Of a stretch of DNA of 26,586 nucleotides, positions 19,507 to 21,714 are shown piece by piece. The stretch comes from Pedobacter sp. (GTDB taxonomy: Bacteria; Bacteroidota; Bacteroidia; Sphingobacteriales; Sphingobacteriaceae). Where the stretch lies: positions 1-26,586 of the forward strand of contig JAQBOT010000207.1 of NCBI GenBank assembly GCA_028287885.1, read 5' to 3'. The position numbers were made by a program, and so were the translations under genes. The notes beneath the pieces are model-generated. The model saw only the letters and a list, made by a program, of their open reading frames with translations. It was not told the origin of the DNA and did not search any database. How positions within the stretch are numbered: the first letter of the stretch is position 1; each line of letters starts with the position of its first letter.

Positions 19507-19956
19507 ATGAAGAATACGTTGGTGATTGATTTAGAAGCAGAGAAGCAAGAAATACTTAAAAGATACCGGGCTCTGTTACGCGCATGTAAGCCAACAATGC
19601 AAAGAGGCGATAAGAAAGAGATTCGAAAAGCATTCGATATGGCCTTGGAAAGCCATAAGAACATGCGTAGGAAATCTGGAGAACCGTACATATATCACCC
19701 AATTGCTGTAGCACAAATAGCGGCGGAAGAAATTGGCCTGGGGACCACCTCGATTGTTTGTGCATTGCTGCACGACGTTGTTGAAGATACAGATTTAACC
19801 CTTGAGGATATTGAGCGGGAGTTTGGTAAAAAAACCGCTAAGATTATTGATGGACTAACAAAGATATCTGGTGTATTTGACTACAACAGTTCTTTACAGG
19901 CTGAGAATTTCAGAAAGATGTTGCTCACGCTTGCAGATGATGTGCGGGTGATATAG
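19507..19956 (+). CDS. N-terminal fragment of RelA/SpoT (partial HD hydrolase)
   Basis: The 149 residues before the TAG cover most of the metal-dependent (p)ppGpp hydrolase domain, including His64 in YIYHPIAVA, His89-Asp90 and Glu93-Asp94 in LLHDVVEDTD. The domain's last conserved metal and substrate residues (Asp and Asn of KLADRLHN) come after the stop. The fragment alone should therefore be inactive and poorly folded. Confidence 0.75.
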   Translation: MKNTLVIDLEAEKQEILKRYRALLRACKPTMQRGDKKEIRKAFDMALESHKNMRRKSGEPYIYHPIAVAQIAAEEIGLGTTSIVCALLHDVVEDTDLTLEDIEREFGKKTAKIIDGLTKISGVFDYNSSLQAENFRKMLLTLADDVRVI

Positions 19957-19983
19957 ATTAAGCTCGCTGACCGGCTGCATAAT

Positions 19984-21714
19984 ATGCGTACAATGGATTT
20001 CATGCCTCGGCAGAAGCAATTGAAAATCGCATCTGAGACCATTTACTTATATGCTCCATTGGCCCACCGCCTTGGTTTATACGCGATCAAATCAGAATTG
20101 GAAGATCTTTCCATGAAATATCTGGAACCGGATACGTATAAATATATTGCAACTCAGCTGAATGAAAAAAAGGCGGAACGGAACCTATTTATTAAGCGTT
20201 TTGTAGAGCCAATTACGGAGAGTTTAAATGAGCAGTCGCTTAAGGCGGACATATTCGGAAGACCTAAATCCATCCATTCCATTTGGAATAAAATGAAAAA
20301 GAAGAACATACCTTTTGAGGAAGTGTATGATCTCTTCGCCATCCGGATCATTCTGGATAGCACACCAGAACAGGAAAAAGCAGATTGCTGGAAGGCGTAC
20401 TCCATAGTTACTGACCTATACAGACCGAACCCGGATCGTTTGCGCGACTGGGTGTCCTCGCCAAAAGGAAACGGCTATGAGTCGCTGCACACAACCGTTA
20501 TGGGGCCAAAGGGACAATGGGTGGAAGTACAGATCCGAACACAACGGATGAATGAAATAGCCGAAAAAGGTTTTGCGGCGCATTGGAAGTACAAAGAATC
20601 CAGCTCAGACAACGGCTTGGATCAATGGATCATGAAAGTTCGTGAGATGTTAAACAACCCGGAAGCAAATGCGCTTGACTTCCTGGATGATTTTAAAATG
20701 AACCTGTTCTCTGACGAGATCTTCATTTTTACGCCAAAAGGTGCGCTGCTTCAATTGCCATTGGGGGCTACAGCCCTGGATTTTGCATTCGAGATTCACA
20801 CCGATGTAGGTGCAAAGTGTATTGGTGCCAAGGTTAATCATAAACTCGTACCCCTATCCTACAAGCTTCAGAATGGAGATCAGGTGGAAATCATCACCTC
20901 TGGAAAGCAAGTACCTAAAGAAGATTGGCTTAATATTGTTGTAACAGCAAAGGCGAAATCAAAGATTAAATCTTCATTAAAAGAAGAAAAAAGGAAAATT
21001 GCCGAGCAGGGGAAAGAAACGCTTGAACGCAAGTTGAAGTCTTTGAAGATCACCTACAATACGGACAATTTAAATAAGCTTACTTACTTTTTCAAGCTTC
21101 CATCAACACAAGAGTTGTTTATTGCAATAGCTCATGGAAAGATTGAGTTGAAGGACCTGAAGGATTACCTTGCAAGTGAGAAAGAGATAGAAAACCGAGG
21201 CGCCGACAGGAATGATCACCAACAAATTGAAGCTTTATTAACGAAGGTAAAAGGGCCAGAGTCTGACATTCTCCTCATTGGGGAAGACATGCAACGGATT
21301 GACTACACCCTCGCTCCTTGCTGTAATCCCATTCCAGGGGATGACGTTTTCGGTTTTGTTACCGTTAGTGACGGCATTAAAATTCACCGTACGAACTGTC
21401 CGAATGCCGCACAATTGATGGCAAACTATGGATACCGGATCGTAAAAGCAAAGTGGAACAAACAACAAGAATTAACATTTTTAACCGGCCTGCACATTAT
21501 TGGTATTGATGATGTGGGCTTAATTAATAACATCACCAAAGTTATCTCAAACGATTTTAAGGTAAACATGCGTTCCATCACCGTAGACACCGATAATGGA
21601 ATCTTTGATGGTTCAATTATGATCTATGTAAATGATAAAGAACACTTGGATCAACTCATAGAGAATCTTTTGGAAGTACGAGGTGTGACGGGAGTTACGC
21701 GCTTTGATGCTTAA
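19984..21714 (+). CDS. C-terminal fragment of RelA/SpoT (synthetase, TGS, ACT)
   Basis: From ATG 19984, 27 nt after the TAG, 576 residues stay open. The synthetase domain (about 85-205) has FGRPKSIHSIWNKM, RLRDWVSSPKGNGYESLHT and EVQIRTQRMNEIAEKGFAAHWKYK, all intact. The RLRD motif is of the basic RxKD type found in bifunctional enzymes. TGS spans about 243-307. LAPCCNPIPGDDVFGF and HRTNCPNA mark the conserved-cysteine region, and an ACT domain ends the protein. If reinitiation occurred, the product would synthesise (p)ppGpp without its own hydrolase, a combination normally harmful to growth. Confidence 0.75.
   Translation: MRTMDFMPRQKQLKIASETIYLYAPLAHRLGLYAIKSELEDLSMKYLEPDTYKYIATQLNEKKAERNLFIKRFVEPITESLNEQSLKADIFGRPKSIHSIWNKMKKKNIPFEEVYDLFAIRIILDSTPEQEKADCWKAYSIVTDLYRPNPDRLRDWVSSPKGNGYESLHTTVMGPKGQWVEVQIRTQRMNEIAEKGFAAHWKYKESSSDNGLDQWIMKVREMLNNPEANALDFLDDFKMNLFSDEIFIFTPKGALLQLPLGATALDFAFEIHTDVGAKCIGAKVNHKLVPLSYKLQNGDQVEIITSGKQVPKEDWLNIVVTAKAKSKIKSSLKEEKRKIAEQGKETLERKLKSLKITYNTDNLNKLTYFFKLPSTQELFIAIAHGKIELKDLKDYLASEKEIENRGADRNDHQQIEALLTKVKGPESDILLIGEDMQRIDYTLAPCCNPIPGDDVFGFVTVSDGIKIHRTNCPNAAQLMANYGYRIVKAKWNKQQELTFLTGLHIIGIDDVGLINNITKVISNDFKVNMRSITVDTDNGIFDGSIMIYVNDKEHLDQLIENLLEVRGVTGVTRFDA

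Follow-up and report, generated by a model that had tools for sequence, protein, structure and literature searches.

The window analysed here, a stretch of 26,586 nucleotides, is contig C493 of a Pedobacter draft genome (G000; 3,416,165 bases in 498 contigs, 92% completeness). It carries a rel gene of the RelA/SpoT homologue (RSH) family in which a frame of 735 conserved codons is interrupted by a single stop, a TAG at positions 19954-19956 of the forward strand (codon 150). The open reading frames on its two sides, 19507-19956 (149 aa) and 19984-21714 (576 aa), share one frame, and a frame with 735 conserved codons and one stop is far beyond chance. The features of the locus are as follows:

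19507..19956, + strand: 5' open part of rel (149 residues, 1-149), closed by the TAG and covering HD_4 positions 1-113 of 156
19630..20079, + strand: HD_4 hydrolase domain with one TAG inside (149.1 bits)
19863..19912, + strand: stretch of about 49 nt, near residue 124, apparently missing in the database protein P0140, as judged from protein letters only
19954..19956, + strand: in-frame TAG, codon 150, where all 29 relative loci read have leucine
19960..19983, + strand: KLADRLHN hydrolase motif, residues 152-159, from the sequence and the relative loci
19984..21714, + strand: 3' open part of rel from an ATG (Met160), 576 aa, with synthetase, TGS, AH/RIS and ACT
20257..20601, + strand: RelA_SpoT synthetase domain PF04607, intact (135.9 bits)
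20719..20898, + strand: TGS domain, residues 405-464
21475..21702, + strand: ACT_4 domain, residues 657-732

With codon 150 read as X, the translated frame matches TIGR00691 (spoT_relA) over residues 42-730 of 735, and the domains HD_4, RelA_SpoT, TGS, AH/RIS and ACT_4 are all present in this order. The same succession of HD, synthetase, TGS, AH/RIS and ACT characterizes the long RSH proteins of the Rel[HS] type (TIGR00691; classification as excerpted from PMC3153485) and, likewise as for that type, a single long RSH was found in G000; in contrast to them, the window record has one TAG inside HD. As deposited, the frame is divided by this TAG, which lies within HD_4, so that neither fragment contains a complete hydrolase domain. 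The KLADRLHN hydrolase motif is present in the window DNA and is shared with the 29 relative loci read. It had been placed three codons after the stop, but starts at codon 152 (19960), two codons past it.

Leucine occupies codon 150 in all 29 relative loci read (L034-L062), where it is encoded by five different leucine codons, and also in the close relatives G147 and G071, as the initial annotation had stated for relatives in general. A single substitution separates the TAG from a leucine codon found in close relatives. A genus-wide search returned a rel match in 144 of 145 genomes, and by table count the frame is full-length and uninterrupted in 136 of the 144 same-genus genomes with a match. 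The eight without a whole frame are G000, G147, G015, G139, G158, G145, G122 and G021. Among these, the rel genes of G147 and G015 are divided at contig ends, that of G139 starts at base 2 of its contig, and that of G158 is without residues 1-68.

The rel gene of G147, which is among the closest relatives (97-98% in protein), is intact but divided between contigs that overlap by 57 nt, and it could be compared with the window gene on both sides of the stop. Over residues 1-187, G000 and G147 are separated by 101.5 synonymous and 3.5 non-synonymous differences, and over residues 170-735 by 312.5 synonymous and 30.5 non-synonymous differences. Synonymous sites are near saturation and protein change is tiny on both sides, a pattern that indicates very strong purifying selection upstream and downstream of the TAG. 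The conservation of the frame originally described on both sides of the stop is confirmed. With G071 as outgroup, seven protein changes including the stop fall on the G000 branch and four on the G147 branch. Because selection has kept both sides, the stop is either very young or absent from the organism. Three protein searches for a same-species copy, each with 8000 candidates scored, listed no full-length copy of more than 97% identity among the best 120 matches of each, and the exact DNA context of the stop was not found in viral contigs, a weak test given that the collection is viral.

In G000 there is one match to PF04607 and one to PF13328, both in the window rel gene. A second RSH with either domain was not found in the draft, from which some 8% of the genome is perhaps missing. 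Across 41 genomes (G000 included), PF04607 gave one match in 40 and two in G017, in line with the premise that these bacteria rely on few Rel enzymes. The search for a second rel/spoT gene, one of the checks suggested at the outset, thus favours a single Rel, while a draft that is 92% complete leaves room for a second enzyme. Small alarmone hydrolases occur in Sphingobacteria according to the excerpted text of PMC3153485, and it is possible that one was missed here.

Lone in-frame stops were also sought elsewhere in the draft, in a sample of 81 stretches including the window (61 + 20; 627,578 bases). The scan used a codon-phase Markov model and retained stops with coding sequence on both sides, judged by the best of six frames, and no ATG within the next 12 codons. 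Its sensitivity was about 0.5 on simulated stops, and the rel stop itself would escape the filter because of ATG 19984. The scan yielded 27 candidates (18 + 9), all of which were compared with Pfam and NCBIfam (seven with longer flanks in NCBIfam, the other 20 separately); an eighth protein compared with longer flanks does not belong to the 27. In four of the 27, a family match spans the stop by a good margin: topA and uvrA (NCBIfam), a DUF3997 protein (Pfam) and a glycosyltransferase (PF13641 and NCBIfam). Family cut-offs were uneven (1e-3 or 0.01 versus 1e-5), with all four counted cases at E <1e-5. A fifth, borderline case is a PAS kinase located at a contig end, in which TIGR00229 starts two residues upstream of the stop and a longer model spans the stop (2.9e-5). 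A YhhN-like gene on the topA contig was not counted, as its domain ends before the stop.

The interruption of uvrA is a TAA at L184:6965 (+) on contig C60, 71 codons before the gene end. This one TAA in G000 stands against no stop in the best match of 30 out of 30 other genomes, although the best match of G006, at 55%, is probably a paralogue. A second, uninterrupted UvrA-like gene with 55% identity is encoded on contig C134 of G000. In topA, the TAA (L196:172 (+), contig C290) falls in the C-terminal part of the gene. A first reading of this position gave a sense residue in four of five relative loci, the fifth not matching the text pattern; on alignment, a sense residue was present in all 22 relative loci, and it was glutamate in all 15 from the same genus. 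Four other genomes (G008, G043, G016 and G017) have one stop inside the matched topA stretch; two of the four were compared, and in these, G008 and G043, it is not at the position seen in G000. The two remaining genes both carry a lone in-frame TAG, at L297:394-396 (+) on contig C398 for the family 2 glycosyltransferase and at L167:11068 (+) on contig C350 for the DUF3997 protein, which lies at a contig end.

As controls, the same filter was applied to 400,000 bases of G071 and to 186,861 bases of G147, which like G000 is a fragmented draft (586,861 bases in total). This gave 18 candidates in G071 and five in G147, and among the 23 there was no Pfam match across the stop and an NCBIfam match across it in two. 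One of these consists of hybrid-kinase models that span a histidine kinase and then a response regulator; in the other, the model of the AryK regulator runs 19 residues past an AraC-type domain that ends before the stop. In both cases we take the stop to be the natural end of a gene. The contrast between G000 and the controls, in small numbers throughout, is 2/27 versus 0/23 by Pfam alone and 4 (or 5)/27 versus 2/23 when NCBIfam is included, which makes an excess of lone stops in G000 suggestive, not strong. Taken at face value, the counts correspond to about 13 lone stops per megabase of G000, so that a given 2.2-kb gene is struck in about 3% of cases, and at that rate such stops are to be expected when many windows are scanned. 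Missense changes at otherwise invariant columns were not raised in the window genes (5 in 3,272 columns, the eleventh highest of the genomes listed), and this test speaks neither for nor against a sequence error.

Conserved genes elsewhere in G000 also contain lone in-frame stops, and on this ground we consider it probable that the TAG results from one miscalled base in the consensus, the draft being fragmented and perhaps thinly covered. The organism would then keep an ordinary intact bifunctional Rel, both (p)ppGpp synthetase and hydrolase, and one erroneous consensus base would have turned codon 150 into TAG. This is the best reading, in that it needs the fewest assumptions to account for the full conservation together with the stops in rel and in the other genes; we infer a shared technical cause for these stops, as well as thin coverage. 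False internal stops are described in excerpts of PMC11017572 as arising from low coverage or quality, with their number tracking assembly error. The spurious pseudogenes treated there (Cooley and Wright 2024) resemble the present case in that a single lesion affects a conserved gene, several occur per draft and relatives are intact; for rel itself, a single lesion in a conserved gene with intact relatives is what was found.

A further point counted for an error is the database protein P0140, a second, different break of rel in near-identical sequence. This 131-residue protein, from a contig of 1159 bp, is identical to the window Rel over residues 1-123 and is alone in this among the best 120 matches listed by each search; past residue 123 it reads as though about 49 bases had been lost, with one further change. 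Judged from its letters, P0140 could reflect a faulty assembly of this very sequence or else be another broken allele. Against an error it can be held that a genome truly losing genes could produce the same pattern, and that a loss of uvrA might be borne, given the UvrA-like gene on C134. Of the four explanations that the initial annotation had left side by side, the recurrent lone stops thus favour sequence error, and recent null mutation, suppression and re-initiation are less favoured. The case advises caution: in a fragmented draft, a lone stop within a conserved gene should first be compared with what the remainder of that draft shows, and only then be used to infer function. For G000 the stops in topA and uvrA provide a simple yardstick.

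The main rival is a recent null mutation, which we regard as unlikely but as the alternative that survives best. Here the TAG would be real, and the strain or the dominant population would be without Rel function and make no (p)ppGpp. Such a mutant would be (p)ppGpp-null and not hydrolase-defective, because the synthetase lies after the stop and the downstream part would be poorly translated. The stop is one substitution away from the leucine codon of close relatives, the window gene is the sole RSH match in G000, so that a nonsense change would act as a null, and P0140 could represent a second null allele. Broken rel frames also occur in two Pedobacter genomes that consist of a single contig, near residue 128 in G145 and near residue 184 in G122. 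Both breaks, however, are one-base deletions (L172 ~5384 and L173 ~5555, respectively), and that of G122 lies beside a C run, which makes them resemble indel errors; such errors often adjoin base runs. No further frame break was seen in the genes neighbouring rel in G145 and G122, within the parts examined. A real null is further opposed by the lone stops in unrelated conserved genes of the draft, by the whole rel frame in 136 of 144 genomes, and by G021, a very fragmented draft of about 760 contigs whose rel gene (contig C570, L176) also has internal deletions, which are probably a misassembly. If the mutation were nevertheless real, a bacterium whose only RSH is a Rel that does not work would be a natural (p)ppGpp-null. 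A literature search on Pedobacter together with ppGpp returned no match with either word in title or abstract.

A bolder version, in which natural Pedobacter populations lose their sole Rel again and again through lesions in its hydrolase domain, would draw on the window TAG, the P0140 deletion and the frame breaks near residues 128 and 184. We think this very improbable, and a clustering of rel breaks at residues 124-187 was rejected for now: the G147 case is a mere contig break and those of G122 and G145 are one-base deletions. Were it true, loss of (p)ppGpp control would be selected in some habitats or cultures.

Very improbable as well is re-initiation at ATG 19984, yielding a 576-residue enzyme with a synthetase and no working hydrolase. 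The 576-aa frame does begin 27 nt after the stop and contains intact RelA_SpoT, TGS, AH/RIS and ACT domains, and in Porphyromonas and Bacteroides a Rel without key hydrolase residues occurs beside RshB (PMC6994654, in excerpt). The window Rel would likewise be unable to hydrolyse if only its 3' part were produced. However, the Rel of those genera is a full-length protein with degenerate HD residues, and hydrolysis is thought to come from RshB, whereas G000 has a conserved HD domain and yielded no second RSH, the PF13328 match being the window rel only. A monofunctional synthetase RSH with a degenerate hydrolase was not recognized here, given an HD_4 match of 149.1 bits with one TAG and constraint that is not relaxed. 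Moreover, the ATG encodes Met160, which belongs to the conserved motif LHNMRTM and recurs in the 29 relative loci read, and since protein conservation explains its presence it is no evidence of a start site. Loss of hydrolase beside active synthesis is also reported as harmful elsewhere: in excerpted accounts, S. aureus Rel is called essential for its hydrolase (PMC6053245), and in E. coli loss of spoT is generally held to be lethal when relA is proficient, although survivors with weaker relA alleles were found (PMC4154780).

A tRNA search of G000 listed 34 matches from 150 scored out of 215 candidates, and none of the 33 to which ARAGORN gave an anticodon had CUA or UUA. The sole CUA-pattern match lies inside tRNA-Glu; of seven UUA-pattern matches, one lies inside tRNA-His and the other six are at places where ARAGORN recognizes no tRNA. 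Leucine and isoleucine tRNAs were both missing from the matches listed, and the search or the genome is therefore incomplete. The suggested check for an amber suppressor accordingly turned up no CUA-anticodon tRNA, among the matches of an incomplete inventory. Least probable of all is that a suppressor tRNA or a reassigned codon lets the TAG be read through to a full-length Rel, a reading compatible with the frame conserved on both sides and with the gaps in the tRNA inventory, but opposed by these anticodons, by the uvrA and topA stops, which are TAA and not TAG, and by the use of TAG as a normal stop, which in the first sample (107 long frames, 16 of them running off a contig) ends 16 of the 91 long frames that close in a stop.
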